DNA of 64,000 nt from a virus. The position numbers and the translations under genes are program-made. The stretch covers positions 1 to 64,000 of IMG/VR virus record IMGVR_UViG_3300021440_000014. One strand, 5' to 3'. The stretch's first letter is position 1. Every line of letters starts with the position of its first letter. Positions 38,986 through 59,305 of this stretch are shown one piece after another. The notes under the pieces were generated by a model, which saw only the letters and a list, made by a program, of their open reading frames with translations, ran no database searches and had not been told where the DNA came from.

Positions 38986-40245
38986 TTAGTAATCAATACT
39001 AGGAGCAAGACCGCTGAAGAACAAGCCCTTAGTCGTCTGCAACGGACCACCGATTTGAGACGAGAAGCTCAATGACACAGACTTATTAGGTCCAATTGAC
39101 GAAGTATAAGACTGAGAATCCAACTTAGCATTTCTCAAAGTATACTCAAGTGCTCTTAGAGAACCTGTTTGAGGGTGCTTAATTGCAATTCTAATGTCGT
39201 AGCTCTTATCTGCTTGAATAACGTCAACCAAGTTACCAGTGGTAAGGTCGCCAACGTTTGCGTCAACAGAAAGGTTCACTTGGACAGGGAATCTAATTTC
39301 TCTGGCGAACGCATATTTGCTGCCCAGCTTTTCAAGCGGATCTCTTGAAAGAGAGAAGCTTAGGTTGTAGCTCTGAATCTTCGCATCAGAAATCGTAAGA
39401 CCAGCTTCGTTAAGAGAGTTAGTTGTTCCAGCGTCCCAGAAGTCGAACGTGATGTCTCCCGGTCTTAAAGCCGAAATATTGTATGCATATCCTGCGTCAC
39501 CTACTCCAAGGTTTCCGCTTCCATAAGTGCCGAACATCTTACCATTAATAGCGTTACTCTTGAACGGAGGAATAGCAGCGTAAGTGCTTAATCCAGAGCC
39601 ATCAACGGGATTAACTGCTGGGCTAGGAACCCAAGATCCAGTTGCAAGTAATCCACCAGTAGCAGGAGCAACGAATCCGTTACCGCTTTGCTTTTGAGTA
39701 AATAAAATGTTAAGACCTTCTACGGAAACGCTAGTCGTTGGGAAATTACCAACGGACGCCTCGGTAGAGAAGTTAGAAATGAAACCGTTACCAATCGCAA
39801 TATATTGTTCTGGATTAGCACCGGAAAGTCCAGCATATTCAGCGGCATCAACACCTTCTGGAACAGTTTTAATAAAATAGTTTCTATCGTCTTCGGTCTT
39901 GTTAAGAATGTTAGCGATAGCAGATACATATCCCTGACCAGTATTAATGTAAAAACCTAACGCTTCTTCATTAGAGAAAGACGAGTTAAGATAAGAAAAG
40001 TCGAGGTTAACGGTAGGGGATTCAAGCAAAATACGGTCAATAGCAGCGAGTTCACCAAATTGGTTCACGTCCCTTCTATTCAAAGAGTAACCATAGTTAA
40101 TGGATTGAACTCTGACTAATTGTTTAACCTTGTAAAAACCAGTAGTTTGCCCAGCGGCAGTAACGGTTCCGTATTGCGTTCCTGTTGCAGGTGCAGGACC
40201 GGCTAGTAAACCTTCTGTTTGGTAAATTATTCTATTTTTTGCCAT
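38986..40245 (-). CDS. Major tail-tube protein
   Basis: A 419-residue protein proposed as the main tail-tube subunit. It has two tube-like halves: the first with QSINYGYSLNRRDVNQFG and FISNFSTEASVGNFPTTSV, the second with IQSYNLSFSLSRDPLEKLGS and SYTSSIGPNKSVSLSFSSQI. Codon use is visibly GC-richer (CGT, ACC, AAC, GAC, GGT) than in its paralogue at 37590 or in most neighbours, and like the major capsid gene, as expected for a very abundant protein. It is a single-gene transcript: GTGTAA motif upstream at 40279-40284 and a strong terminator downstream. The leader has no Shine-Dalgarno. Confidence 0.7.
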   Translation of the reverse strand: MAKNRIIYQTEGLLAGPAPATGTQYGTVTAAGQTTGFYKVKQLVRVQSINYGYSLNRRDVNQFGELAAIDRILLESPTVNLDFSYLNSSFSNEEALGFYINTGQGYVSAIANILNKTEDDRNYFIKTVPEGVDAAEYAGLSGANPEQYIAIGNGFISNFSTEASVGNFPTTSVSVEGLNILFTQKQSGNGFVAPATGGLLATGSWVPSPAVNPVDGSGLSTYAAIPPFKSNAINGKMFGTYGSGNLGVGDAGYAYNISALRPGDITFDFWDAGTTNSLNEAGLTISDAKIQSYNLSFSLSRDPLEKLGSKYAFAREIRFPVQVNLSVDANVGDLTTGNLVDVIQADKSYDIRIAIKHPQTGSLRALEYTLRNAKLDSQSYTSSIGPNKSVSLSFSSQIGGPLQTTKGLFFSGLAPSIDY

Positions 40246-43091: not shown

Positions 43092-45005
43092 CTAATCTAT
43101 TTTCTTGAAGCCGGGACCGATATCTCTTCTTCTAGAGCTATTTCCAGAATAAGACGCTTTTGGATCTGCTACGAATGGATTAGTTCCATAATAATATCTA
43201 TATCCTGCGGGAATCCTTGTTGGTTCATTTTCGGTAGGCTTATATGGATCGTATGGTGGCCACTGTAAGCTACCAAAGAATGTAGGCTTTGAAGTTAAAT
43301 AAAAGCTATTTGGAATTGTTTTATCATAAGTATGAACTACATTTTTTTCATCCCAAACAATTGCAGATCCGGGAGCTAAATCGCTGGCTCTATAACTCCA
43401 ATTACCCCATCTTATCATTGTTTCTCTTACGTTAGTATCGTATTCAAGAGATTCTCTTGGATTACGAGAATCATCTCCTGAACCATTTATTATATACCCT
43501 AATTTAAAAAGCGTAGTATAAACGTTGTCGTAAGGGAAATATTTTAGATTATAACACTCGTAAATAGATTCTGGTGCCCCTCCCGTTGTTCCTCCTAAAA
43601 TATTACCAACAAACATCCAATAATGATTTCTTCTACAAACATCTACGGTTATCGTCTGGGCGTCTATAAATTCATTCCCTCTATCTTGAGAAAATATTCT
43701 ATTTCTAAGAATAGTAAAATGAGAGCTTGTCCCCCAATATTCGTCTGCTCTTATACCTGATGCTGAAAAATTTCCTTCTATTAAATTCATAAAAGGATGT
43801 CCTCCGTGCATCAAATTACTAAATCTTCTAATAATATCTGAATCTCCTTCTCCTAATCTCCACCAAATATTTGTAACGAAATTATAGCTAACTACATTTC
43901 CAGAAGTGCATCCTTCAAAACATACTGTTCCTATCGTTAGTTTTTCTGATATATTATCCGTAATCAATAAAGCAGAAGTATGAGGGCCAAGAAAAATAGG
44001 ATATGCCCTGTCTGAAGTATAATGTAAATCTCTTTCGTTTCCGACCGGAACTCCTCCATAGAGATAGCAACCGCTTATTTCTGACCATAAAGCGTTATAA
44101 ACCCAGAAAGCCCTTCTATGTGCTCCTATCAATTTCACATTTTTTACCCAACAATTAACCCATCCAAAAACCGTAATAGTATCAAACGCATCTGAGTCTA
44201 GGTTATCAAGAGTTAAATTTTCTAAACCAGCCTCCTCTACCATTGGCCCAATTCTTACCGCTTGAGGTTGGTTTGTATAAGAAAAATACAAAGGAGGATC
44301 TATTTGAACCGTCGTTGAATTAACTACGTTAGTTATTTTGACTATTTGCCCACATGGTCTAGTCCCAGATTCTCTACCCAACCAAGTAGCATACTGATTA
44401 GCTCCTCCTCCTCCTGTTCCGGCTGATGTAAAATTCGAAACAGGAAGAATAGCACCCTCATTCGTTTTAGTGTCTACTATGAGATATTGACCTACTGACC
44501 AATTATGTGTTGTAGAAGTAGTTAAATTAACGGAATCTTTTGTTGGAGACACTAAATCAAAAGCTGGATAAGTTGACCAAGAGAAATCAAAACCCATATC
44601 AAAATTAACCATTCTTTTTGATAAAAGTTTAATTGGAGTAATTACTCCTGTTTCTGCATTCGTTGAATAGGAAGATATATAAAAAAGATCTGGAGAAACC
44701 CCTTTAATAATAGTTTCATACATGTTTTCTCCTTTTAAAGTTACATAACTTGGGATTTTTAAAGCTTCATCTATTAAATATGTTCCATTTTTTAAAAGAA
44801 CAATTTTATTTGGTGGGCAGTTACTTATAGCTGCTTGTATTTGTTTCGTTGTAGCCCCCGGATTTATAATAGTATAAATTTCTCTGTCCGTATTCACCGT
44901 AGATCTAAGACCCGGATTCCAGTTTATTCTTAAATTATCTGGAATAATAGTAGAAAAACAGTTATGAATAAATAGGAAAAAAAGTAAAAAATAAATTGAT
45001 TTCAT
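43092..45005 (-). CDS. Secreted right-handed beta-helix (pectate-lyase-like) protein, copy 1
   Basis: A 637-residue protein with a Sec signal peptide (MKSIYFLLFFLFIHNCFST). The mature start is IIPDNLRINWNPGLR, then an 'ATTKQIQAAISNCPPNKIV' pattern and a pectate-lyase-type parallel beta-helix with many short turns. Fold members cut or bind polysaccharide. It is a paralogue of the proteins at 46890 and 48767, sharing 'YWGTSSHFT.LRNRI', 'F.GPH..A.LITDN' and 'WGNW.YR'. Last in an operon with a jelly-roll and a fibre-like protein, each with a signal peptide. Catalytic residues cannot be assigned by eye. Exported depolymerase or secreted adhesin are both possible. Confidence 0.7.
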   Translation of the reverse strand: MKSIYFLLFFLFIHNCFSTIIPDNLRINWNPGLRSTVNTDREIYTIINPGATTKQIQAAISNCPPNKIVLLKNGTYLIDEALKIPSYVTLKGENMYETIIKGVSPDLFYISSYSTNAETGVITPIKLLSKRMVNFDMGFDFSWSTYPAFDLVSPTKDSVNLTTSTTHNWSVGQYLIVDTKTNEGAILPVSNFTSAGTGGGGANQYATWLGRESGTRPCGQIVKITNVVNSTTVQIDPPLYFSYTNQPQAVRIGPMVEEAGLENLTLDNLDSDAFDTITVFGWVNCWVKNVKLIGAHRRAFWVYNALWSEISGCYLYGGVPVGNERDLHYTSDRAYPIFLGPHTSALLITDNISEKLTIGTVCFEGCTSGNVVSYNFVTNIWWRLGEGDSDIIRRFSNLMHGGHPFMNLIEGNFSASGIRADEYWGTSSHFTILRNRIFSQDRGNEFIDAQTITVDVCRRNHYWMFVGNILGGTTGGAPESIYECYNLKYFPYDNVYTTLFKLGYIINGSGDDSRNPRESLEYDTNVRETMIRWGNWSYRASDLAPGSAIVWDEKNVVHTYDKTIPNSFYLTSKPTFFGSLQWPPYDPYKPTENEPTRIPAGYRYYYGTNPFVADPKASYSGNSSRRRDIGPGFKKID

Positions 45006-45775: not shown

Positions 45776-46890
45776 GTTGCCGTCTCCTCTGGATCAACTA
45801 AGTTCTCGAAATACCTTATGACAATGAAATATATTTTGGCTACTCCGGGTAAGTCGTCTGCGGTTTCATCAACTAATCTTCTTATTCTTAAATCTAGAAT
45901 AGCCCCAGAAGTAGACGTTGAATGCCCAAGATTTAAGTTGCCACTTGAAGAGGATTTTATTAAATCGTTAAAAGCGGTTTGCGAGCTAGTTATTTTTATT
46001 TCAGTGCCATAAGATTGATCTACTGGATCATCGTGTTCTACCATATCTGCGGATATACCCCAAACTACGGATTTACTTGGGATTGCATTTGAAGCCGACC
46101 AATAGACTTTTACCTCTACATTACCTTTATCCCAAGTTTCAGGCATCGGGACGGAAGCGCAAACAGTTTGTATAGTCGTATTTGTAAACTCCATAAAGTC
46201 TCTTCTTTTAAAATTTACGATACTTTCTTCTGTCCCATAAATTGCGCCAGCCGTAAAATTAGTTAGCATGGCTCCCGCTGGTATAGCTAAGGTTCTGTAA
46301 ATACCAGATCTAGAATTATTCCTCCACTCTCCTTCTCCAGTGGTAGAATTAGTGCATGTCCAAACGTAGTTACTTTGCGCATTGCTATTGGGAATTCTAA
46401 TGTCAAATAATGTTGGACTGCGATTATAAACATTAGTATTATATAGACCCGTTCTATTATTTTGATATGAATCACACCAAAACTTTTGATTACTATAATT
46501 AAAGAAATACATGTTAGTAGAAGGGATTCCTCCTAAAACTGGATTGCTACCATCTAACTCTTTCGCATTAGAAGGAAAATACGCAAAAACAGAATTAGTA
46601 TTAACCAATTCTACAACTACCTGTTTAAATGTATTCGCTTCGTTTGGTTGATTGGCAAATGATATAGTGAAATTATTGCTAGGATAAACTATATAGTAAT
46701 TAGTCCTCCAATCTACAACTATGTTTGTTGTATTGTTAAGTTTAATCATCGTTTTAGATCCATTTTTAAGATTAAAAATGGAAAGACCTGTCTGAACAAC
46801 GAACCCAGTAACAGGATCATATTGAACAGTTCTTAGTTGTCCGAAACAAGTAATGGCACTAAGCAATAAAAATAAAAATATATTTCTCAT
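45769..46890 (-). CDS. Secreted fibre-like beta protein, copy 1 (longer)
   Basis: A 373-residue protein with a Sec signal peptide (MRNIFLFLLLSAITCFGQ). Residues ~30-145 match the paralogue at 51351: NTTNIVVDWRTNYYIVYPSN, VVVELVNTNSVFAYFPSN, STNMYFFNYSNQKFWCDSYQ. That pattern is common in phage tail-fibre domains (strand, then 'G..W.DS'). A second C-terminal beta-sandwich (AMLTNFTAGAIYGTEESIVN... through VIRYFENLVDPEET) is absent from the shorter copy. It overlaps the upstream beta-helix gene by one base (TAATG). A virion-type domain behind a signal peptide is unusual. Confidence 0.6.
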   Translation of the reverse strand: MRNIFLFLLLSAITCFGQLRTVQYDPVTGFVVQTGLSIFNLKNGSKTMIKLNNTTNIVVDWRTNYYIVYPSNNFTISFANQPNEANTFKQVVVELVNTNSVFAYFPSNAKELDGSNPVLGGIPSTNMYFFNYSNQKFWCDSYQNNRTGLYNTNVYNRSPTLFDIRIPNSNAQSNYVWTCTNSTTGEGEWRNNSRSGIYRTLAIPAGAMLTNFTAGAIYGTEESIVNFKRRDFMEFTNTTIQTVCASVPMPETWDKGNVEVKVYWSASNAIPSKSVVWGISADMVEHDDPVDQSYGTEIKITSSQTAFNDLIKSSSSGNLNLGHSTSTSGAILDLRIRRLVDETADDLPGVAKIYFIVIRYFENLVDPEETATW

Positions 46891-48698
46891 TAGTCTTTCT
46901 TGATTATAATTTCAAATTTTCCTTTTCCAAAAATCGTTTCTGGCGCAGGAGTTGGATCTACTACGGGTGGGGGTTCCTGTGTTCCTCCAGAAGAAGCGGG
47001 TGGATTTACTCCATAAACATATCTATATCCTGCTGGAATATTTGTTGGCGAAAAATTAGGATTAGAAGGATCGTATGGGGGCCATTTTAGGAAACCGAAA
47101 GAAGAAGGTTTGCTAGTGAGATAAAAGCTATCAGGAATTACTTTGCTAGTAGTATCTACGACATTATTAGGGTGCCAAGTTTGACCTGAGCCAGCTATCG
47201 TATCATTTGTCCTATAGCACCAATTGCCCCATCTAATCATAGTAATCAAAGTAGAAGGATCATAGCTTGTTGCCCCACTTCCTAGGCTATTATAGCCTAT
47301 TTTCCAAATAGAAGAAATAGAACTGCTATAAGGAGCAGGCTCTCCATTAATTAATTCGTAATTTCCCTCTTGGACTTCCGTTCCGCCAAGTAAATTACCA
47401 ATGAAAGACCAATACCAATTACGTCTTTCAACGTCTACTGTCCAAGTTTGTGCGTCATCTGCGCCTCTATCTATCTGGCAAATTCTATTTCTCAACGCAG
47501 TGAAATGAGAGCTTGTTCCCCAATACTCGTCTGCCCTGATACGTCCGCCACTCCAATTTCCTTCTATAAGATTCATCATGGGGTGAGGACCATGCATAAG
47601 CGGGCCAAAGCGTCTCGGGCTATCTCCAGTATTAGACCACCAAATATTTGTAATAAAATTATAGCTGAAAACATTACCAGAAGAGTTACCCTCCCAGCAC
47701 ATACCCATCGTAAGTTTTTCGAGAATATTGTCAGTAATTAAACATGCGGTCGCGTGTGGGCCAAGAAAAGGAGCATAAGATCTATCGCTAATATAAGCTC
47801 CGCTATTATCTGTTCCTACGGGGCGACCCTCATGAATTAAACATCCATTAATTTCGAACCATAGCGCATTATAAACCCAATAAGATCTTCTATCTATACC
47901 TCTCACTTCTATGTTCTTTGTCCAGCAATTAACTGCCCCAAAAACGCCTACGTTGTCTCTAACCCTAACTGGATGACCATTTAGCGACAAATCCTCTGCT
48001 CCAGCATACTCTGTGATTCCTGTCATTTTTACTCCCTGCGGAGAATTTGCGTAGCTCCAGTAAAGAGGGGGACTAAATGTAACGCTTGTTGGAGAAACTA
48101 CTGACGTAATTTTGACAAGTTGACCAACGCATCTTCTGCCTGAGTCTCTACCTACCCAATTAGCAGAACCTAAAGAGCCAGCATGATCCATTGGGGGGTT
48201 TCCGGCTGGCTGCTCTAACATATCAAAAAGAACTAAATCTCCAGTCACCCATCCATGTGCTGTAGTTGTGCTAATTGTATCACTATCTTTAACGGCTGAT
48301 ACTATAGATTTGGCGGGTTGACTCCAACTTTCATCAAAATTATTATCGAAAGAAATAATAGTGCTTCCAGAAAAGGCTGCGGCAGGTTGAAGGATAGTAT
48401 TACTAATTCCCGCCCCCCTCAAAGTAACTTTACTTGGGATTACTAGAGTCGAAGAAAGATTATAAGTTCCAGAAGATAATTGAACTACCTGATTTTGAGG
48501 ACAAGTATCTAATGCCGATTGAATTTCTGCTTTCGTCGCTCCAGCAGCAATAGTTTTAAAAATTACTGTTCTATTGGGGATTCCGCCTCTAACTCCAGCG
48601 TCCCAATTGATTCTATAAGAAGGAGGAAGAATTTCGCTTAAGCAACTGAAAGCGAAAAACATAAAAATAATAAAAATGGTAAATCTGATTTTGTTCAT
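46890..48698 (-). CDS. Secreted right-handed beta-helix protein, copy 2
   Basis: A 602-residue paralogue of the protein at 43092. N-terminal signal peptide (MNKIRFTIFIIFMFFAFSCLS; a cysteine near the cleavage site does not make a good lipobox). Mature part: INWDAGVRGGIPNRTVIFKT, then 'ATKAEIQSALDTCPQNQVVQ' and a beta-helix with shared blocks (YWGTSSHFTALRNRICQ). The C-terminus has a Pro-rich linker (TQEPPPVVDPTPAPE) before a short basic tail. It opens the operon that runs to 42720, after a GTGTAA motif. Likely polysaccharide-active or -binding; enzyme activity not provable here. Confidence 0.7.
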   Translation of the reverse strand: MNKIRFTIFIIFMFFAFSCLSEILPPSYRINWDAGVRGGIPNRTVIFKTIAAGATKAEIQSALDTCPQNQVVQLSSGTYNLSSTLVIPSKVTLRGAGISNTILQPAAAFSGSTIISFDNNFDESWSQPAKSIVSAVKDSDTISTTTAHGWVTGDLVLFDMLEQPAGNPPMDHAGSLGSANWVGRDSGRRCVGQLVKITSVVSPTSVTFSPPLYWSYANSPQGVKMTGITEYAGAEDLSLNGHPVRVRDNVGVFGAVNCWTKNIEVRGIDRRSYWVYNALWFEINGCLIHEGRPVGTDNSGAYISDRSYAPFLGPHATACLITDNILEKLTMGMCWEGNSSGNVFSYNFITNIWWSNTGDSPRRFGPLMHGPHPMMNLIEGNWSGGRIRADEYWGTSSHFTALRNRICQIDRGADDAQTWTVDVERRNWYWSFIGNLLGGTEVQEGNYELINGEPAPYSSSISSIWKIGYNSLGSGATSYDPSTLITMIRWGNWCYRTNDTIAGSGQTWHPNNVVDTTSKVIPDSFYLTSKPSSFGFLKWPPYDPSNPNFSPTNIPAGYRYVYGVNPPASSGGTQEPPPVVDPTPAPETIFGKGKFEIIIKKD

Positions 48699-48766: not shown

Positions 48767-50596
48767 TTACCTGTCCATAGATTTTATATTAGGTCTTCCT
48801 TTACCATTTATGACTCTAATGTTTCCAGTTGATAGCCCAGATCCAGAACCCCCTCCACCCCCGCCTCCTTCTTGAGGGGGATTCCCTAGTCCAAAAGCTC
48901 TCCAAGCCGCAGGAAGATTAGTAGCAGTATTCATTGCTAAAGATCTAGTAGGATCAAACGGTGGCCAACTTAGCCCAGCAAAATTAGTTGGTTTAGCACT
49001 AAGATAAAATGAGTTAGTTATAGTAGTGTAAGAAGTATCTAAAACGCTGTTCGTGTGCCAAACTTGACCACTACCACTTATGCTATCATTAGTTCTGTAA
49101 GTCCAGCAGCCCCAACGAATTGTATTTGTCCATACATAAGGATCATAATTTGCACTGGTATTGCCTAAACTTTCATAGCCCAACTTCCAAATTGTTGCAG
49201 TTCCTTCTGAAAAAGATTCGCCTAATATGTATTCATAATTGCTTTCGTTGACACCGGGAGCACCACCTGCAACTTCGCCAAGAAACACCCAATTGCGGTT
49301 GTTTCTTTCAATGTCGTAAGTCCAAGCTTGTTGGGCGGGCGAACCTCTATCAACCTGAAGAACTCTATTGCGTAAGCTTACAAAACTATCTGAAGTTCCA
49401 AAGTATTCGTCTGCCCTTGTTCTGCCAGCAAGCCAATTGCCTTCAATAAGGTTTAAAGTAGGGTGAGGTCCGTGCATCAATACTGCAAAGCGGCGAGGAG
49501 GATCAGTGTTTGCGTCCCACCAGATATTAGTAGTATAATTATAAGAAAATACATTACCAGAAGCAGCACCTTCAAAAGATATCGCCATAGTAACCTTTTC
49601 TATCCAATTATCTGTAATTAAACCTGCGGAGCAGTGCGGACCAAGAAACCCACCATAGGCACGTTCGCTAGTATACTGCGCGTCATTATCATTTCCTACC
49701 GGAATACCTCCTTCAATATGGTTTGCTGAAATTGTTGGCCACAAAGCTCCATAAACCCAATATGCTCTAGATTTTATACCTCTTATATGGCACCTAGTAA
49801 CCCAACATTCTATGGCTCCTTGCCATTGAGTATTATGATCTATGGTTAAAGAGCTATTAGCGATAGTTACATCTTCCACTCCAGCCCTGTGAACTAATCC
49901 AGTTATTTTCGCTGACTGAGGGGAATTACTATAGCTACTATAAAAAGGAGGATCTATTTGAAATACAGTAGTAGATACAATATTTGTAATTTTAGATACT
50001 TGACCATTAGGGCGGTTTCCTACCGCCGCTGGTCTTCCGCAGTAATTACAATCTCCAAGTGTCCCTCTATTCCTGATAGGCTTTAAATTAGAAGTATTAG
50101 TAACTTGATCTATTATGACATAATCGCCTGCGCTGTAACCATGAGCCACGGAAGAGGTTGCATTCACGCTACCTTTTACTGGAGTGACTAAATCTCTTAT
50201 TGGTCCACTATCCCAATGGTAGCTATAACCATTATCAAACATTACTATTGTATTTCCTGAAAAAGTAGGAGCATTAGTCAATATAGTTACTCCCATGCCA
50301 GCCCCTCTTAAAGTCACGCCATCTTTACTCATCTCTATACTAGCAGAAAGAGAGTAAACTCCAGCAGATAAAAGGACTACTTGGTTCGATGGACACGCAG
50401 CTATAGCAGCATTAATTGTTGCTGCTGAAGCACCAGATACTATTGTGGTATAAATCGTTTGACGATCTGGAATGCCCCCTCTAACCCCCGGATTCCATTC
50501 TATAATTCTTTCATCTGGAATTATGGGCGAAAAGTTCTGAGATAGAGCATTAAAACAAAATGCTAATATAAATAAAATTGAAAATATTTTTTTCAT
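48767..50596 (-). CDS. Secreted right-handed beta-helix protein, copy 3
   Basis: A 609-residue paralogue of the proteins at 43092 and 46890. Signal peptide MKKIFSILFILAFCFNALSQ; then IIPDERIIEWNPGVRGGIPD, 'AATINAAIAACPSNQVVLLS' and a beta-helix body (YFGTSDSFVSLRNRVLQ; GFLGPHCSAGLITDNW). A poly-Gly linker (PQEGGGGGGGSGSG) precedes a short C-terminal tag NIRVINGKGRPNIKS. Similar glycine linkers appear in the neighbouring jelly-roll and repeat proteins. It is the last gene of the operon from 52438 and ends 22 bases before the next motif. No enzyme residues can be named. Confidence 0.7.
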   Translation of the reverse strand: MKKIFSILFILAFCFNALSQNFSPIIPDERIIEWNPGVRGGIPDRQTIYTTIVSGASAATINAAIAACPSNQVVLLSAGVYSLSASIEMSKDGVTLRGAGMGVTILTNAPTFSGNTIVMFDNGYSYHWDSGPIRDLVTPVKGSVNATSSVAHGYSAGDYVIIDQVTNTSNLKPIRNRGTLGDCNYCGRPAAVGNRPNGQVSKITNIVSTTVFQIDPPFYSSYSNSPQSAKITGLVHRAGVEDVTIANSSLTIDHNTQWQGAIECWVTRCHIRGIKSRAYWVYGALWPTISANHIEGGIPVGNDNDAQYTSERAYGGFLGPHCSAGLITDNWIEKVTMAISFEGAASGNVFSYNYTTNIWWDANTDPPRRFAVLMHGPHPTLNLIEGNWLAGRTRADEYFGTSDSFVSLRNRVLQVDRGSPAQQAWTYDIERNNRNWVFLGEVAGGAPGVNESNYEYILGESFSEGTATIWKLGYESLGNTSANYDPYVWTNTIRWGCWTYRTNDSISGSGQVWHTNSVLDTSYTTITNSFYLSAKPTNFAGLSWPPFDPTRSLAMNTATNLPAAWRAFGLGNPPQEGGGGGGGSGSGLSTGNIRVINGKGRPNIKSMDR

Positions 50597-51360: not shown

Positions 51361-52115
51361 TCAGAAATAGTTGTATAAACGTTCGTTCCTTCTGCGTCTA
51401 AAGTTAATATATAAGTTATCGAATTCGTAAGAGTAGACCAAATAGGAGAGTTGACGTTTGTATAAAAATAAGTTGCAAAACTAGGTCCACCTAAAGTAGG
51501 ATAAACTACAGTTCTGTTTACAAGTTGAGGTTTTATATATATAACTTTTGTTTTGCTTGTGCCAGCCTGCAAACCAGTTACATTCGTTATACTTATGTTA
51601 TTAGTAAGATACCAAGTCTCTGTTGGGACTTCCAAGTTTACTGTTAAATTACTGTTTACAGTGCTATTCGTGGCAACGTTTATAGTCGTTAAATTTTGAT
51701 ATATTTCCTGATGTGAATCTATCCAAAAAGTAGTTCCATTATATCTCATTGTGAACCAATTAGTTGACGGAGCCGCAGACATAAATGGAGTCGTAAAATT
51801 AGGCCCATTTGTAGGGAAATAAGCTATAGTAGAGTTGGTATTAACTACCTCTAAAACTATCGAGGCATAAGTTGATCCCGAACTTGGAACATTCGTCCAA
51901 GAAATAGAGAAATCATTACTCGGAGTAGCTCGGTAGTAATTCGTATTCCAACTGAGTAATACGTTTGTCGTATTGCCCAAATCAACCTGAGAATTTCTAA
52001 GTGCCGTTGGGACTAATTTTCTAGTAGAAGAATCGTATATTACAGTATTATATGTTGCCGCAAAAATAGAATTAAGCGTCAAAAAAAACAAGCAAATTAT
52101 TAATATTTTTTTCAT
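51351..52115 (-). CDS. Secreted fibre-like beta protein, copy 2 (shorter)
   Basis: A 254-residue protein with a Sec signal peptide (MKKILIICLFFLTLNSIFA). Residues ~25-135 match the paralogue at 45769 (NTTNVLLSWNTNYYRATPSN, VLEVVNTNSTIAYFPTN, STNWFTMRYNGTTFWIDSHQ). The rest differs: a low-complexity Asn/Thr stretch (NLTTINVATNSTVNSNLTVN), then a beta-rich end. It starts within the stop of the BppU-like gene, so a secreted protein is co-translated with a baseplate-type protein. Function unknown. Confidence 0.6.
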   Translation of the reverse strand: MKKILIICLFFLTLNSIFAATYNTVIYDSSTRKLVPTALRNSQVDLGNTTNVLLSWNTNYYRATPSNDFSISWTNVPSSGSTYASIVLEVVNTNSTIAYFPTNGPNFTTPFMSAAPSTNWFTMRYNGTTFWIDSHQEIYQNLTTINVATNSTVNSNLTVNLEVPTETWYLTNNISITNVTGLQAGTSKTKVIYIKPQLVNRTVVYPTLGGPSFATYFYTNVNSPIWSTLTNSITYILTLDAEGTNVYTTISEWK

Positions 52116-52438
52116 TAAGAAACGTCCTCAATTACAGCGAAAATAAAATTATTTCCGGGTGGAAAAGTCATTTGGTTAGAGTCAGGAAAAGTTACCAAAA
52201 ACTCACCTTCATAAAAACCTTTTACAGATGTATCTCCAGAAACCCATGAATATTGGGCTATTCCCTGAGATGCGTCATAAACAGAGCCAGTCCTAGTAAT
52301 TATATCTCCAGAAGGGCGCAATTTATAATTAAAATTGACCAAGCAACCAGAGAGGTTAATGTTCTCTTCATTAGAGTCCTGTAGTTGAACTCTTAATACA
52401 GGGAGCACGTCCCCCTTTTTTAAATAAAAATCTATCAT
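52115..52438 (-). CDS. BppU-like baseplate protein N-terminal domain
   Basis: A 107-residue protein whose whole length fits the N-terminal domain of BppU-type baseplate upper proteins: FYLKKGDVLPVLRVQLQDSN, LSGCLVNFNYKLRPSGDIIT, AQYSWVSGDTSVKGFYEGEF, VTFPDSNQMTFPPGNNFIF. In other phages this domain anchors receptor-binding proteins to the baseplate. Here it stands alone, opening an operon of signal-peptide proteins. The 5' leader after the GTGTAA motif is only ~9 bases, so the mRNA may be nearly leaderless. Confidence 0.65.
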   Translation of the reverse strand: MIDFYLKKGDVLPVLRVQLQDSNEENINLSGCLVNFNYKLRPSGDIITRTGSVYDASQGIAQYSWVSGDTSVKGFYEGEFLVTFPDSNQMTFPPGNNFIFAVIEDVS

Positions 52439-52447
52439 AAAATATTT

Positions 52448-52453
52448 TACACT
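52448..52453 (-). promoter_or_regulatory. GTGTAA motif, candidate late promoter for secreted operon 2
   Basis: GTGTAA reading leftward, with only 9 bases (AAATATTTT region) between it and the ATG at 52438. Its last base is also the first base of the stop of the repeat protein gene at 52453. Confidence 0.5.
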
Positions 52454-55400
52454 TATAACTTCCTAATAACTGTCCTGCTATCCGAATACGGACTCTTTAT
52501 GGTTATAAAATTACCAGCATTTTTAATCTTTGGATTTAAATTCGCATTAGAGTTTTTTATAATTATAGAACTTGAAGGAGCGACAAAAATCCTTGCTCTT
52601 GCAGACTGATGAACAGAAGAATAAGGTGCAGAACCAATAAGAGCTTTACCTGAAATGCTCTTGTCCAAAGATTTTCTAATTCTTGCAATCGCATTAATAT
52701 ATTTCTGAGCAACTAATGAAACTCTAGCTCTAGCAAGTATATTTTTGAAATTAGCATTCGCGATACTAGAAACAGCAAATTGATTTCTAAATACAGATCT
52801 AGATACTCTAGCAATAGAATTAATATTTTTCTGCGAAGAAATTTTAATCCTTGCGATTGCTAACTGATTCTTTAAGTAAAGAACTGATATAGAAGCCCTT
52901 GAAGACTGATTATAAGAGCTTGTTCTTGTTACTCTTGCTAACGATTGCTGGTTTTTAGCCAACGTAGCCGCAATCCTAGCTCTACCAGAGATAGACTGAA
53001 CCTGTAACGCGCTTCCAATTCTAGCAATACCAGATATATTTAAGCTATTCGTTTTACGTATCCTAGATATAGCCTGAATATTTTGAGCAGAAGATATATA
53101 AATAGAGCTTCTTGCGCTAATATTCTGAGAATAAGTTCTAGAAATTCTTGATACAGCATTTAAATTCTTCTGAGCCGAAGAAGTTATTCTTGCTCTAGCT
53201 GTAATTGAGTTTTGCTGTAATGCTGAACCGATTCGAGATACAGCAGAAATATTGTAACCTAAAGATTTAGATAACCTAGAGATAGCCTGAATATTATAGC
53301 TATTTGTTTTTGATACTCTGGATAAAGCAGATTGATTTTTATCAAAAGTTCTCTTTACTCTTGATAAAGCCTGAATATTTTGCTGTCTTACAGCAGTAAT
53401 GCGCGAAACAGAGCTTATATTAGCCGTATTCTGCTTTTGTATCCTAGATACAGAAGAGATATTTCTATTATATGTAGCTTTAACTCTCGATACGCCACTT
53501 ATGCTATAACTAGAGCTATTTTTAATTCTAGCTATACCTTGTTGGTTTTTCGAGGCAGAAGGATTGCCGATATAAGCTCTACCAGAAATACTAGAGAACC
53601 CAATGCTGTCTTGAGAAACTCTTAATGTTACCGTATCTCCCTCTAGGACAAGATAAATTCTATGATACGTTCCATCATCGGGGCAATATAGTATTACGTC
53701 ATTTCTATAGGGGCTTGAAGTCTCCGTTTGATTTATAGAAACGAATACATTATTAGAGTCTGATTCGTCCGCGAAAACATTGTAAGCTTTAGCGGAATCT
53801 TGGCAGAACAAGTTCCAGTTTAAAGCCGCAGAAGGAGGATTAGACTGATATTGGTCTATGTTTAATGTATAAACTCCATCCTGAGTTCTTAATCTTAGGG
53901 CATACCAGTTACTAGAATTTCCTAAAATTAAAACATCTGTGGAGTCCGCATTTTTAATTACTCTTGCTACCGACTGCTGATAAACGGAGCTAGGAGTTCC
54001 ACTCGAAATATATGCTCTGGCCTGCTGAGTCTTATTAACTTGACCTCTTATGTTAGAAGTTCCAGAAATACTTCTGTCTATAGCTGCTGTTCCAATCCTA
54101 GCGACAGCCTGAATGCTCTTTATAGCTGGGGCTTTAACATTCGCTAAAGACTGAATATTTTTGCTATAAGAAACTTTTATTCTAGATATAGAGCTTTGAT
54201 TTTTGCTGCTCGTTAAAGATATCCTAGATATAGCCTGTTGGAATTTTAAGCTGGAATTGGATATTCTTGCTCTTCCTTGAATATTATTCTGTTTTGCGGA
54301 AGTTATTCTTGAAACAGATTGAATATTATAATTAGAAGCTTTCGATAATCTAGATATAGCAGATTGATTTTTCGAGAACGAAGCAGAAATTCTAGCAATC
54401 GACTGCTGATTCTTGGATATAGATATTTTTATCCTAGAAATGGCTTGAATACTATACAGCCTAGAATTGGCGACACGCGCCAAAGCCTGTATATTATTAT
54501 TACCTTTAGTCGCTGTTATTCTGGCTATACCTTGCTGATTTTTGGAAACAGAAGAGGTTATTCTAGAAACGGACTGAATATTATAAAGCTTAGAATTAAC
54601 AACTCTCGATATAGATTGTATGTTGTTATTATTCTTTGTGGCTGTTATTCTGGATAGAGCCTGCTGATTCTTTTGAGTAGAAATGAATATTCTAGAAACA
54701 GATTGGATATTATAAAATCTAGCATTGACTATTCTTGCCGTGCTCTGGATGAAATAGTTTTTACCAGAAGTAATTCTTGATATCGCTTGTTGATTTTTAT
54801 TTAGTGAATTTCTAACGGAAGAAATAGACTGAATAAATTTTTGGCCAGACGCAGTAATCTTAGCGACAGAAGATATATTCTTGAATAAACTATTACTAAT
54901 TCTAGCTCTTGCTTGCTGGAAATTATTAGTTTTAGCAGACGTTATTCTTGAGACTGCACTTAAATTATAATTACGACCAACGGAAATCCTAGAAATACCC
55001 TGTTGGTTCTTCTGAAAACTATTAGATATCTTAGCGATACCCTGAATACTTTTATTATTAGATACTGTTATCCTTGATCTTCCAGATATAGAATAATCTA
55101 AAGTTTTCGAAACCCTAGCCAAAGATTGCTGGTTCTTCTGATTGGCTATGTAAATTCTAGATATCGACTGGATATTTTTCGCTGAAGAATTTGACAGTCT
55201 AGATACAGAAGAAATATTATACTGACTACTTCTACTTACTCTAGAAATAGCCTGTATATTATAAAATTTAGATAAAGATATTCTTGATATCGCCTGCTGA
55301 TTTATAAAAGAAGATTTATAAATTCTGGCAACAGACTGTATATTTTTGGATACACTTGACTGAATTCTAGCTTTAGCTTGCTGATCCGCAGAGTCTACAA

Positions 55401-56940
55401 CTTTAATTCTAGATACTGCTTGAATATATTCTAGGTTAAAATTAGAAATTCTAGATATAGCCTGAATGTTTTTCTGGGTAGACTGTAAAATACTAGACTT
55501 ACCTTGTATATAATAATTGGAAGTAGAACTTCCTCCCCCGCCACCAGAAGGCGCATTACCAGTAAAAGGATTTAAAGCAACGGCATGTAAAAGAGCATTT
55601 GATGCCGCCATTTCAACGCTAATGTAGCCGCTTGTAAAAATGTCTCTTTCATCTAAACCATCGTTTGTAGTGCTAAACGCTGCGTTTGGCTGAGTATTAT
55701 AAACAGTTAAAGTTCCAGAGGTTCCAGATCCACCAACATCATTTGCGTATGTAAAGTTTACCGCAAATCTTTGGCTGGGACTACCAGTGACAAGAAAATC
55801 ATACCTTGGTGAAGCTTTATATCCTGAAAATTTAGATCCAGTTGGACTTGTTAAATTAACTCCAGAATATTCTATTAAACCGGCAGCTAAAGTAATTGTA
55901 TCGAAAGCCCCGCCAGTGCTTTGAATTCTTACTGTAAATGGATTATTACCAGTTCTGGGATTTAAAAGATAATATTGGTGAGCGTGATTCCAAAATGGAT
56001 CAATCGTCTTACCTATCTCCGTAAAAACTTGATCTCCCCAACAAACACCAGAAATTCCAGAAGGATTAATGCCAGTTGTTACATTACTTTGATTATATGT
56101 AATGTTAGCTATTAATATTGTATTATTATTCGAGTAAGAAGTAAACCCAGAATAAGAAACTACGTATCCGCTACTTGAGGGATCGAAAATAGATCTTTCT
56201 CCTTTGCCGGATATTAAGGCAATTGTAGTTGGCCTGTATAAAGATGCTACGCTAGATTGATTTCTACTATTTTGCCTAGTAATTCTAGAAATACCCGAAT
56301 TACGACCATAGCCCCAAGTCGTAATAGGGTTAGAGAAACCAAGCCAAGGGTTGCCCGTTTGAGTTCCAGACTCTATATAAGGCAAATCTCCAGATTGTGC
56401 ATTGTAACCAAATCTATGCGTCGCCGTTCTAGATGTCGCCAACGCTTCGTAGGCTATAAAACCAACTTCAACAACTAATCTATCACCACCAGAAACGTTA
56501 ATATTTCCGCTGACTCCAGTATAAGGAGGGAAAAATCTTCCGCTTAAAGTAGGGGATAGAGGAAACTCCTGAGATGTTCCAGAATTGGGAAATCCAGAAT
56601 AAATTACGGCTCTTAAAGCGTTAGTAGGAGTAACAGCTTTAATAAGTATAGCATACTGCTGGTTAGCTAATAAGTTATTCTCGGAAACTTGAATGATACC
56701 GCTAATAAAACCGCTAATAGACTGCGTGGCTAATTCATCAGAAACGTATTGGCGAGTAAGAACCCTATAAGGGGTTGTAGCGATTGCTTTTGTGCTTAAC
56801 TTTCCAGTAAAAGCATGGTTAACTGGATTTATGCTGAGGTATCTTTTATCCGCTTCAGTAGTTCTATTCCAGCCGCTCTCGTAATTAATGTTCGTTACGG
56901 GCGCATTACCAGACTGAATAAAATAAAAACGATATGGCAT
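52453..56940 (-). CDS. Giant fibre-like protein with ~60 copies of a 14-residue Arg-ladder repeat
   Basis: A 1,495-residue virion-type protein. The first ~470 residues are non-repetitive: a tail-fibre-like start (EADKRYLSINPVNHAFTGKL, QYVSDELATQSISGFISGII) and beta-rich domains, ending in a poly-Gly hinge (APSGGGGGSSTS). Then come about 36 tandem 14-residue units of the type N-(I/Q)-Q-(S/A)-(I/V)-(S/A)-R-(I/V)-x5-(K/Y), for example NIQSISRIYIANQK and NQQSLARVSKTLDY. A ~110-residue globular insert follows, then ~24 more units and a short C-terminus. Arg recurs at one position of nearly every unit. No signal peptide. Likely a long basic beta-solenoid or fibre shaft on the tail; family unknown. 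Confidence 0.75.
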   Translation of the reverse strand: MPYRFYFIQSGNAPVTNINYESGWNRTTEADKRYLSINPVNHAFTGKLSTKAIATTPYRVLTRQYVSDELATQSISGFISGIIQVSENNLLANQQYAILIKAVTPTNALRAVIYSGFPNSGTSQEFPLSPTLSGRFFPPYTGVSGNINVSGGDRLVVEVGFIAYEALATSRTATHRFGYNAQSGDLPYIESGTQTGNPWLGFSNPITTWGYGRNSGISRITRQNSRNQSSVASLYRPTTIALISGKGERSIFDPSSSGYVVSYSGFTSYSNNNTILIANITYNQSNVTTGINPSGISGVCWGDQVFTEIGKTIDPFWNHAHQYYLLNPRTGNNPFTVRIQSTGGAFDTITLAAGLIEYSGVNLTSPTGSKFSGYKASPRYDFLVTGSPSQRFAVNFTYANDVGGSGTSGTLTVYNTQPNAAFSTTNDGLDERDIFTSGYISVEMAASNALLHAVALNPFTGNAPSGGGGGSSTSNYYIQGKSSILQSTQKNIQAISRISNFNLEYIQAVSRIKVVDSADQQAKARIQSSVSKNIQSVARIYKSSFINQQAISRISLSKFYNIQAISRVSRSSQYNISSVSRLSNSSAKNIQSISRIYIANQKNQQSLARVSKTLDYSISGRSRITVSNNKSIQGIAKISNSFQKNQQGISRISVGRNYNLSAVSRITSAKTNNFQQARARISNSLFKNISSVAKITASGQKFIQSISSVRNSLNKNQQAISRITSGKNYFIQSTARIVNARFYNIQSVSRIFISTQKNQQALSRITATKNNNNIQSISRVVNSKLYNIQSVSRITSSVSKNQQGIARITATKGNNNIQALARVANSRLYSIQAISRIKISISKNQQSIARISASFSKNQSAISRLSKASNYNIQSVSRITSAKQNNIQGRARISNSSLKFQQAISRISLTSSKNQSSISRIKVSYSKNIQSLANVKAPAIKSIQAVARIGTAAIDRSISGTSNIRGQVNKTQQARAYISSGTPSSVYQQSVARVIKNADSTDVLILGNSSNWYALRLRTQDGVYTLNIDQYQSNPPSAALNWNLFCQDSAKAYNVFADESDSNNVFVSINQTETSSPYRNDVILYCPDDGTYHRIYLVLEGDTVTLRVSQDSIGFSSISGRAYIGNPSASKNQQGIARIKNSSSYSISGVSRVKATYNRNISSVSRIQKQNTANISSVSRITAVRQQNIQALSRVKRTFDKNQSALSRVSKTNSYNIQAISRLSKSLGYNISAVSRIGSALQQNSITARARITSSAQKNLNAVSRISRTYSQNISARSSIYISSAQNIQAISRIRKTNSLNISGIARIGSALQVQSISGRARIAATLAKNQQSLARVTRTSSYNQSSRASISVLYLKNQLAIARIKISSQKNINSIARVSRSVFRNQFAVSSIANANFKNILARARVSLVAQKYINAIARIRKSLDKSISGKALIGSAPYSSVHQSARARIFVAPSSSIIIKNSNANLNPKIKNAGNFITIKSPYSDSRTVIRKL
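52590..53605 (-). repeat. Second block of the 14-residue (42-base) tandem repeat, ~24 units
   Basis: Coding tandem repeat with a 42-base period in the distal part of the 52453-56940 gene. Units (NISSVSRIQKQNTA, NIQALSRVKRTFDK, NQSALSRVSKTNSY) keep the N..(S/A)R(I/V) core while linkers vary. The DNA is too diverged for recent slippage; the pattern is protein-level. Confidence 0.7.
53950..55510 (-). repeat. First block of the 14-residue (42-base) tandem repeat, ~36 units
   Basis: Same repeat as the second block, in the middle of the 52453-56940 gene. Three flavours alternate irregularly: K-NQQ, Y-NIQ and x-NIS. A few units have 15 residues (NNIQSISRVVNSKLY). Divergence between units suggests old expansion kept by selection. 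Confidence 0.7.
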
Positions 56941-57014: not shown

Positions 57015-57413
57015 TTATTCTAGCTCAATAACATATTGCACATTATTGCCATGAATATCTAACGCTTGCCAACCTAACTTAAATGTGACTTCTTTATGTA
57101 GCGGCTCTAAACCTTGAGTAAAATTCAAAACATTTCTTCTGAAATAGATAATTCTTCTATTGGTAAAAAAATGCTCGGAATTGTGGATGTTAAATTTTAC
57201 TCCATTAACTTCAAAATGCCCATCATTTAAATCTACTAAATAATCATTAACTCCGTCCGCCAAGCAAAACAACTCTAATTGATTACCGTTTTCCTCTTCT
57301 TTTAAAACGTCGTAAAATGAAGATTTTAATGGATCTATGGAAGAAATGTCGTCGGGCTGTTGTTGCAAAATTTTACCGTCTTTAAATCTGGCTGCAAATA
57401 GATATTTTAGCAT
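57015..57413 (-). CDS. Hypothetical small protein between repeat protein and virion gene
   Basis: A 132-residue soluble alpha/beta protein (LKYLFAARFKDGKILQQQPD; ELFCLADGVNDYLVDLNDGH; VTFKLGWQALDIHGNNVQYV). Not recognised. It has no GTGTAA motif directly upstream and follows a hairpin at 57448-57477, so it may depend on read-through from 58057. A small virion or assembly protein is the likely class. Confidence 0.5.
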   Translation of the reverse strand: MLKYLFAARFKDGKILQQQPDDISSIDPLKSSFYDVLKEEENGNQLELFCLADGVNDYLVDLNDGHFEVNGVKFNIHNSEHFFTNRRIIYFRRNVLNFTQGLEPLHKEVTFKLGWQALDIHGNNVQYVIELE

Positions 57414-57514: not shown

Positions 57515-58057
57515 TCAGTTTTCATCAAATCTGAGAGATAGCGTAATTATTGCAGAATCGCCGGGGGGTGCAGCAGCAGAAGTCTTTAACTGAGTTACCA
57601 AATAACTCGTATAACCAGTAGAAGGCAATGTAGTTGCAGCCGCTCTAGCATTTTCAGGACCAGTAGTTCCAAAGAAAACAGGAACGCCAGTAGTTAGAAG
57701 ACCCGTAAGAGTCAAATCAACAGCAGTTCCAGCCAATGCAGTAGTGGCAGGAGTTGTGTAGCCCGAAATACCAGTATAAACTAACGTGAATCCGGGTTGA
57801 GTAAAGTCACCAGTAGTATGTTGGAATAAGCAATTGCTAATCTGGTTGAAAGTTCCCGAGAAAACTCCAAACTGATATTTTGGATAGCTATTACTTCCAG
57901 CCGAAATCGGAGAAGAAGAGTAAACAGTGTTTACGTCATCTGTATTCTTCCAATTTGCTTGAGAAACGTTGAAAGTTCTAGTAGTCCCCTTTGAGGCTCC
58001 GCTCAAAGATGCTACGGCAGTTCCATTGTCTTCCGCCCAAAAAAATGTACTAGCCAA
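57515..58057 (-). CDS. Virion protein, probable head decoration or minor capsid
   Basis: A 180-residue, Ala/Thr/Ser-rich beta protein (MASTFFWAEDNGTAVASLSG; YPKYQFGVFSGTFNQISNC; SAIITLSLRFDEN). The start is TTG, supported by a strong GGAGG 7-8 bases upstream, and a GTGTAA motif 60 bases up. Codons are richer in GC than the genome average, like the major capsid gene, which suggests high expression. It lies just downstream of the major capsid. Family not recognised. Confidence 0.55.
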   Translation of the reverse strand: MASTFFWAEDNGTAVASLSGASKGTTRTFNVSQANWKNTDDVNTVYSSSPISAGSNSYPKYQFGVFSGTFNQISNCLFQHTTGDFTQPGFTLVYTGISGYTTPATTALAGTAVDLTLTGLLTTGVPVFFGTTGPENARAAATTLPSTGYTSYLVTQLKTSAAAPPGDSAIITLSLRFDEN

Positions 58058-58207: not shown

Positions 58208-59305
58208 TTAGACAATCAAGCCGCAAACGCCACGGGCGTCAACGCAAACTCTACCTTCTTCAAGGGCACCGTAAGTTCCGATCTTTTCAGAACGGGAAAC
58301 CCACTGGTCGTCAGGAACCACGCTGAACGTAGAACCAGAGTCAGCATTTTGAGCGATAGGACGAATAAACGCTTCTCTGCTCAAGTCGAAACCAATCAAG
58401 ATTTCATCGTTTGAAGCACTGAAGGTAGCACCGTCATAGTTAGTTGAACCTGCGAATTCCGAGAAGAGAACGTTATACTTCTTACCTGCGCCAAGTTCTA
58501 GCAAGTCCGTTATAGAAACTCCATAGATTTCAGAGCTACCAGCAGAGTTGAAGATATTCTCACGAATAGCGTCAGGAAGAGGAATAGAAGTCGTGCCAGA
58601 TCCAGCCTGACGAGTATTCATCGGGTTGAATGCGAAGTTACGAATCTGTTCTTTAACTTCTGGGCTAACAAATAAGTCAGTAAGACCTTCCGTGTCAACT
58701 CCAGTTGCGGTTCCACCGTTGAAAGCGGCGTTAATTCTGCGAAGCTTAGTGATAAGCTTGCTCAAATCAGGAACAATAAACACGTCGTCTGTTCCAGACT
58801 GATAAACGTGCTGTAACCCCTGAGTGCTCGCTTCGGCAAGAGCCTTAAGAACAACCGCCCAAGCATTACGCTCCTGTTTAATAAGGATTTCCTGAGCCAT
58901 TCTCTCCGTTGCTTTAGCAACAACATCCAAGCGCGAACGTCTAGCATATTTCTTCATGAAAGAAATCGCTGAGTCGAGACGGTATGTGGAGATTTTCATC
59001 TCTTTCACGCCTTCAACTTGGTTCGTAGGAAGACCACCAGCTTGAGATTGCGCCCAAGTGCTAATCGTTCCAACGCTTTCGTCGTAGTATAAGTCAAGCG
59101 GAATGCTCGGACTATCATCTTCGTTATATGGCTTGTCAGAGTAAACTCTTGAAGCTGTTCCAGCAGAATTGATAACTTGCTGAATCACGGGACCGATGAA
59201 ACCGGCGAAAATAGAAACAGCCTCATTAGAAACCGTTTGATCCTTAGATCCCATCGCCTTAATTAGCTCAATCTGGTCTGGTGTATTTTTGAATTGAATC
59301 TTCAT
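58208..59305 (-). CDS. Major capsid protein
   Basis: A 365-residue protein forming the head shell. It starts MKIQFKNTPDQIELIKAMGS and continues FAGFIGPVIQQVINSAGTAS, with EIYGVSITDLLELGAGKKY and IGFDLSREAFIRPIAQ in the last third; the layout fits HK97-fold capsids. Codon use is clearly GC-richer than neighbours, as for a very abundant protein. It follows a decoration-type protein and a protease-scaffold gene, the normal head order. It ends with a strong terminator. The leader is A/T-rich without a Shine-Dalgarno. Confidence 0.75.
   Translation of the reverse strand: MKIQFKNTPDQIELIKAMGSKDQTVSNEAVSIFAGFIGPVIQQVINSAGTASRVYSDKPYNEDDSPSIPLDLYYDESVGTISTWAQSQAGGLPTNQVEGVKEMKISTYRLDSAISFMKKYARRSRLDVVAKATERMAQEILIKQERNAWAVVLKALAEASTQGLQHVYQSGTDDVFIVPDLSKLITKLRRINAAFNGGTATGVDTEGLTDLFVSPEVKEQIRNFAFNPMNTRQAGSGTTSIPLPDAIRENIFNSAGSSEIYGVSITDLLELGAGKKYNVLFSEFAGSTNYDGATFSASNDEILIGFDLSREAFIRPIAQNADSGSTFSVVPDDQWVSRSEKIGTYGALEEGRVCVDARGVCGLIV

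Follow-up and report, generated by a model that had tools for sequence, protein, structure and literature searches.

What kind of structure does a viral protein form when a unit of only 14 residues is repeated in it some sixty times, and what would such a protein do for the particle? This question is raised by P0001, encoded in a window of 64,000 nucleotides that covers positions 1 to 64,000 of the IMG/VR virus record IMGVR_UViG_3300021440_000014. Judging from the sequence, the gene order and one domain model of good quality, we consider it fairly probable that P0001 forms an elongated fibre or filamentous decoration of the virion, mostly of beta structure and situated near the head or neck. 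The repeats, their family, the association with a partner gene and the place of the gene are shown directly, and an N-terminal jelly-roll is predicted with good confidence. From this material we infer the presence of P0001 in the virion, its fibre shape, its oligomeric state, a contact function and the movement of its genes between phages.

The repeat protein

P0001 carries its repeats in two arrays, separated by a globular insert (Table 1). The repeats seen in the initial annotation are confirmed, although the count of 36 plus 24 units is revised to 37 plus 24, i.e. 61 units in total. The poly-Gly hinge and the insert of about 110 residues that were described there are likewise present, the former as a run of five glycines at aa 466-470 and the latter at aa 1001-1116, and a short tail follows array 2. 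Within the arrays, successive units are spaced by 14 residues in 50 of 59 steps, by 15 in seven and by 16 in two. Position 4 of the unit is Ala, Ser or Gly, position 6 Ser or Ala, and position 8 Ile, Val or Leu in all 61 units, while position 7 is Arg in 49 of them.

The 14-residue periodicity is far above chance: self-identity at lag 14 is 0.305 in array 1 and 0.288 in array 2, compared with largest maxima of 0.159 and 0.169 among 200 shuffles. Array 1 and two relatives also show a super-period of 42 residues (lag 3 in units; for array 1 the shuffle fraction is 0.001, in one of 20 lag tests), but array 2 and most arrays lack it, and it was left unused. Tandem Repeats Finder detected no tandem repeat at the DNA level in the array region, which suggests that the array is old and has been kept by selection on the protein. 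No other ORF of at least 80 aa in the record, both inside the window and in the rest, holds a second array of such repeats.

Table 1. Features of the P0001 locus (positions in the window; HD, N-terminal jelly-roll domain)
Feature	Position	Strand	Basis or occurrence
P0001, 1,495-aa repeat protein	52453..56940	-	ORF call, translation
P0001 aa 1-210, HD, probable virion anchor	56311..56940	-	AF2, relatives, fold match
P0001 aa 211-464, no detected relatives	55549..56310	-	low-confidence model
P0001 aa 465-476, Ser/Gly hinge with GGGGG	55513..55548	-	translation
P0001 array 1, aa 477-1000, 37 units	53941..55512	-	
P0001 globular insert, aa 1001-1116 (~116 aa)	53593..53940	-	
P0001 array 2, aa 1117-1457, 24 units	52570..53592	-	
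p57015, 132 aa, second conserved small cassette gene	57015..57413	-	20/62 repeat stretches
p57515, 180 aa, conserved partner gene upstream of repeat gene	57515..58057	-	57/58 loci
Probable major capsid protein	58208..59305	-	position; weak match to PHROG 2522 major head protein, E 0.11
107-aa BppU_N-like protein, just 3' of repeat gene	52115..52438	-	PF10651, 27.6 bits, cut-off 23.1
Three pectate-lyase-like proteins, after repeat gene	43092-45005, 46890-48698, 48767-50596	-	PF12708

Distribution of the repeat family

No model in Pfam, PHROGs or NCBIfam fits the 14-residue repeats, in line with the first impression that they belong to no described family. A scan of IMG/VR with a two-unit DNA pattern, in which the motif of the first scan demanded two Arg, yielded 62 stretches and 63 ORFs that bear the motif. 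Once duplicates and ORFs of less than four chained units had been removed, the set comprised 48 repeat proteins with 1,272 units. Their consensus is T-I-T-G-[KLV]-A-R-I-T-x-T-T-x-Q, the step between units is 14 residues in 1,111 of 1,173 cases, and the number of units counted per ORF ranges from 4 to 98; a single member of the set, L075, does not appear to belong to the family. The largest array, with 98 units counted in an ORF cut by the locus end (L068:5633-10294), contains a 336-bp DNA repeat with 99% matches, and tandem copies at the DNA level are also found in L039; in these two relatives the array has recently expanded. Two array-bearing ORFs adjoin each other on the same strand in L031, L049 and L066.

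Searches of IMG/VR with the peptides of P0001 itself returned no match. Neither did tblastn searches of the arrays against phage records, one of which used a less repetitive array, but BLAST masks low-complexity sequence and this result does not show absence. Sequence searches against solved structures yielded nothing beyond weak, chance-like matches in the case of P0001 and its arrays, and no match for HD or p57515. Within the open-licence PMC literature, neither the motif strings and 14-residue phage fibre repeats nor tandem repeats of phage beta-solenoid tail fibres were found, and no title or abstract opening pointed to a paper with this 14-residue repeat. The repeat proteins thus apparently form a large, undescribed family and, as no earlier description was found, both the family and its gene cassette appear from their sequences to be new.

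A conserved partner gene

The arrays are accompanied by a partner gene and a conserved cassette that are absent from the initial annotation. Homologues of p57515 occur in 23 of the 62 repeat stretches, and those of p57015 reach nearly the same number (Table 1). Both lie mostly 5' of the repeat gene and on its strand; a few loci have the two small genes in another order or p57015 on the other strand. A p57515 profile, made from 14 sequences of loci first found by the repeat scan, retrieved 102 relatives in IMG/VR, from which 80 loci were kept. The 58 loci with at least 6 kb downstream were scored; 30 of them are on contigs already found by the repeat scans and 28 on others, and the set includes the near-copy loci L214/L215, L242/L243 and L258/L259.

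With the strict motif, an array was detected in 28 of the 30 loci seen by the repeat scans and in 15 of the 28 unseen ones. The loci without a strict-motif array have variant units, in many of which position 6 is occupied by a larger residue. With a relaxed motif, an array is found downstream on the same strand in 57 of the 58 loci (27 of the 28 unseen ones), at a median distance of 2.7 kb, and in the 58th (L251) it is present by eye. Of the 22 loci with less than 6 kb downstream, seven have an array. As a control, the relaxed motif was found in one of 8,241 ORFs in 80 HD loci, that one (L091) being a real array, and shuffles gave none of 3 or more. In L251, L257, L264 and L272, four of the ten variant proteins printed, the variant array is followed by an acidic, Trp-rich C-terminal tail.

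The association extends to a single case outside the viral records. When 84,980 bacterial and archaeal genomes were searched with a Gly-only pattern, which fits 45 of the 62 viral stretches, 11 matches were obtained, one of which is a real array, on a contig of a Blastocatellia MAG (L163). Because the partner gene lies about 4 kb upstream of this array on the same strand (24974 versus 28900), the contig is probably phage or prophage; a profile search of 162 genomes of its class found the partner only in the genome of L163 itself.

The arginine column

An Arg column and a positive charge had been pointed out in P0001, and both proved to be traits of the family. Arg occupies position 7 (Arg7) in 77% of 1,032 units of the partner-found loci, counted with a motif blind to that position; the net charge is positive in 54 of 56 partner-associated arrays (the other two are not net positive) and in 30 of 30 arrays of at least 12 units from the first scan. 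In keeping with the binding of acidic polymers suggested in the initial annotation, these charges might indicate that the main role of the array is electrostatic: a polycationic Arg/Lys comb could attach to acidic exopolysaccharide, LPS, teichoic acid or extracellular DNA and keep the particle close to its host. Such a role would suit the composition of the P0001 arrays, where 132 Lys and Arg face only 8 Asp and Glu in 869 residues, as well as the three pectate-lyase-like proteins encoded nearby, but we regard it as doubtful, although a serious possibility. Arg7 is no more frequent in arrays of higher background charge (Spearman -0.25, p 0.066, 56 arrays), three arrays with a net-negative background retain it at a mean of 0.60, and in the L091 array position 7 is by eye mostly Trp, His, Asn, Thr and others rather than Arg. 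Eight further arrays from an Arg-blind scan have Arg7 in 43% of 86 units and Lys in 19%, the Arg7 share being below that of the partner-found loci. Since Arg7 is kept in arrays of neutral or negative background, it may be structural; we read Arg7 as partly structural and regard the binding of polyanions as possible but secondary.

Fold of the repeat

Over the 1,032 partner-locus units, entropy is lowest at position 4 (0.56 bits), followed by positions 8 (0.93) and 7 (1.49). Ile or Gln at position 2, small residues at 4 and 6 and Ile, Val or Leu at 8 would fit the inward face of a beta-strand, with positions 1, 3, 5 and 7 outside. The fixed small and hydrophobic positions and the 14-residue period bear out the periodic beta-type repeat that had been suspected from P0001 alone. 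The more specific proposal of a solenoid, to be checked with AlphaFold, fared less clearly: AF2 with an in-register family alignment produced a strand pattern of period 14, but at low confidence (pLDDT mostly 57-76). When the repeats had no aligned relatives, AF2 drew helices; this helical model was dropped, as it lacked relatives and as Gly4 and the Thr/Ile/Val-rich motif argue against a helix.

Structural comparison by VIA-align placed the repeat model closest to the beta-solenoid antifreeze protein 3p4g (Z 14.2, rmsd 3.7, 214 aligned), while Foldseek found no match in the PDB at E 0.001. AF2 favours beta-solenoids for perfect repeats, according to passages of one study (PMC11795689). Given this bias, the low pLDDT and the helices drawn without relatives, the solenoid fold is a lead only, and the match to 3p4g, a Ca-dependent protein unlike the Asp-poor array of P0001, may stem from nothing more than a shared solenoid layout, the model being weak. 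Matches to the LpxD/GlmU solenoids were discarded for an rmsd above 10 Å, and the 11 BFVD matches at E <0.001, which have query TM-scores of 0.13-0.38 and comprise mixed proteins including baseplate wedge initiators, were not used.

A quite improbable explanation is that the array has no ordered periodic fold and acts as a passive spacer or as a linker that is extended and largely disordered. The very low complexity of the sequence and the low, alignment-dependent confidence of AF2 would be expected of such a linker, but the small and hydrophobic positions and the near-constant unit length are kept over 1,272 units, and disorder would not need them.

Several known types of fibre and repeat were compared with the array. 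Collagen-like fibres of the (Gly-X-Y)n type were rejected in view of 25 Gly in 869 array residues and the 14-residue period. RTX beta-rolls and the MpAFP solenoid have a repeated Gly/Asp Ca-binding motif, and a Ca-dependent solenoid of this type was rejected as the arrays contain only 7 Asp. The adenovirus triple beta-spiral, a trimer, has a repeat of about 15-17 residues in which a Gly/Pro turn joins two antiparallel strands; its unit length is near to that of the array, in which Gly occupies position 4 in 89% of the partner-associated units, while Ala, Ser and Gly are mixed in P0001. The BACON domain is far longer than 14 residues. As described in passages on crAssphage, it forms tandem repeats in a phage protein, as the unit of P0001 does, and it is a domain associated with carbohydrate binding (PMC6949934). 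The triple beta-helix of T4 gp5, the adenovirus spiral and the Orsay beta-bracelet likewise build a fibre from a short repeat with fixed hydrophobic and small positions, but these shafts are solved and, in the sections that treat them, differ from P0001 in motif and period, which is 8 residues in gp5 and the bracelet against 14 (PMC4576200, PMC7565637). The former is a triple-stranded helix with the octapeptide VxGxxxxx (PMC4576200), the latter a pentamer with an eight-residue unit of a five-residue strand and a three-residue loop (PMC7565637). A gp5-type helix was rejected as lag 8 is outside the eight best lags of either array, and an Orsay-type bracelet on the length of the unit.

The N-terminal domain and the insert

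What had been called a fibre-like head is more likely an anchor than a tip. AF2 models HD as a jelly-roll with pLDDT of about 84-97, which by prediction makes aa 1-210 a beta-sandwich of the galactose-binding-like or CBM-like kind; the closest folds are CocE-type C-terminal jelly-roll domains (Z 12.3, rmsd 2.9, 163 aligned), and this region has neither a Pfam match nor a PDB profile match. IMG/VR holds 126 relatives of HD, mostly N-terminal in proteins whose C-terminal parts vary. Anchors for exchangeable fibres behave in this way, so that HD is more likely the base of P0001. The proteins matched in BFVD include some annotated as collagen repeat, Peptidase S74 and pectin lyase fold, and Pfam recognised almost nothing in the C-terminal parts of 52 HD-family proteins (two SPP1_Dit, one DUF1349). 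Streptomyces phage Wakanda/Muntaha gp27 and UOF79085 of Caudoviricetes ct7ZZ929 share the N-terminal HD of P0001 at about 26-28% identity but have HD alone, without an array; their genes are located between the capsid protein and later head-tail genes.

Among the 80 kept HD loci, one combines HD and an array in a single ORF (L091), and another has the array in a gene close by (L137). Fusions of arrays with HD are seen in P0001, L047/L061 and L091, and fusions with Gly_rich_2 in L029, L047, L054 and L066; as several array proteins possess neither HD nor another large domain, the HD anchor is not common to all. The L091 protein (L091:7493-11164) consists of HD, a long region that is beta-propeller-like by eye, and the array.

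The insert of P0001 has a 30%-identical counterpart inside a protein encoded at 64571-66364 of the record (L013:571-2364). That protein is otherwise related to two proteins that are 59% identical to each other, encoded at 37590-38912 and 38986-40245 on the minus strand, and the three are probably paralogous tail-tube proteins. Judged by its sequence, the insert could be a mobile surface domain.

Gene neighbourhood

In the relative L061, a major head protein (phrog_10) is followed by p57515, p57015, a protein with HD, Gly_rich_2 and the array, and then by a head-tail adaptor (phrog_442), neck, tail terminator, tail and tape measure genes; the Gly_rich_2 match sits on L047, which is the repeat protein of L061 on a second contig. 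Upstream of p57515, 80 ORFs from 44 partner loci have matches in many different families of major head, portal, protease and terminase proteins, the commonest single family accounting for 8 of the 80. The virion protein assumed in the initial annotation is therefore found among virion genes. In the window, the gene upstream of the probable major capsid gene resembles the structural cement protein PF22758 (E 1.7e-05, 25.4 bits), below the cut-off of 27. The repeat gene thus lies near a capsid protein gene, as expected of a head fibre or decoration protein, although adjacency to head genes is no proof of attachment to the head.

An unlikely alternative location is the tail tip or baseplate, the gene of a fibre of this kind merely standing among head genes. 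Gly_rich_2 domains are known from tail-fibre proteins, and their presence in four relatives agrees with a tail position, as do the BppU_N-like neighbour, a homologue of which adjoins the array gene in 4 of 62 stretches, and the pectate-lyase-like genes that come after the repeat gene. On the other hand, the repeat gene of L061 is placed between the capsid and head-tail adaptor genes, and gp27 of Wakanda, with HD alone, between the capsid protein and the adaptor.

A location near the head or neck would place P0001 beside phi29 gp8.5, SPP1 gp12, T4 Hoc and T5 pb10, outer head proteins that are thought to aid host adhesion (PMC7602432). Passages of the same source describe such head fibres and decoration proteins as in some cases elongated or built of several domains, one part anchoring them and another pointing outward, much as proposed for P0001; unlike in P0001, the shafts named there are coiled-coil, collagen-like or Ig-like, and those passages name no 14-residue Arg repeat (PMC7602432).

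In a comparison of 45 loci, limited to ORFs of at least 200 aa within 6.5 kb, 21 of 32 pairs of p57515 with at least 80% identity lack any similarity among their upstream head genes, as do 349 of 389 pairs with 60-80% identity. On this evidence, the cassette seems to be exchanged among phages that have unrelated heads.

A model for the array and its significance

In the arrangement that we favour, the N-terminal jelly-roll would hold P0001 to the particle, perhaps via p57515, and the 14-residue units would stack along a single axis. Positions 2, 4, 6 and 8 would pack inward, those at 4 and 6 being small, so that Arg7 would repeat as an outward column. By the numbers of residues per 15 Å given in PMC7565637, and with a solenoid rise of 4.8 Å, the 61 units (869 aa) would extend over about 29 nm as a one-rung solenoid, about 42 nm as a triple beta-helix and about 77 nm as a beta-spiral. 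The length of the array could be freely adjusted, globular domains such as aa 1001-1116 might be threaded into it to display contact surfaces, and the whole cassette would pass between phages whose heads are unrelated. We also put forward, as a tentative proposal whose chances we place somewhat short of even, that p57515 is a near-universal adaptor in a hitherto unrecognised, horizontally exchanged virion cassette of uncultured phages, by which capsids of many unrelated families carry a length-adjustable fibre of 14-residue units with a conserved, functionally required Arg column and a new beta-fibre fold.

The repeat family and its partner gene are now named beside the head genes of many phages that are known only from metagenomes, and simple sequence tests for both are given. 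If P0001 is a fibre, it would represent a new type of shaft whose short, regular units make its length tunable, of use in studies of fibre folds and as a scaffold, and would indicate a head-proximal device for adhesion or spacing. Such a device could be missed, because homologues of the two small cassette genes have no tblastn match in 50,697 phage records.

Two minor observations concern the genes that come after the repeat gene. The products of the genes at 43092, 45002, 45769, 46890, 48767, 50593 and 51351 have by eye a signal-peptide-like start, which is odd for virion genes, and the pairs 51351/45769 and 50593/45002 resemble duplicated blocks, likewise by eye.
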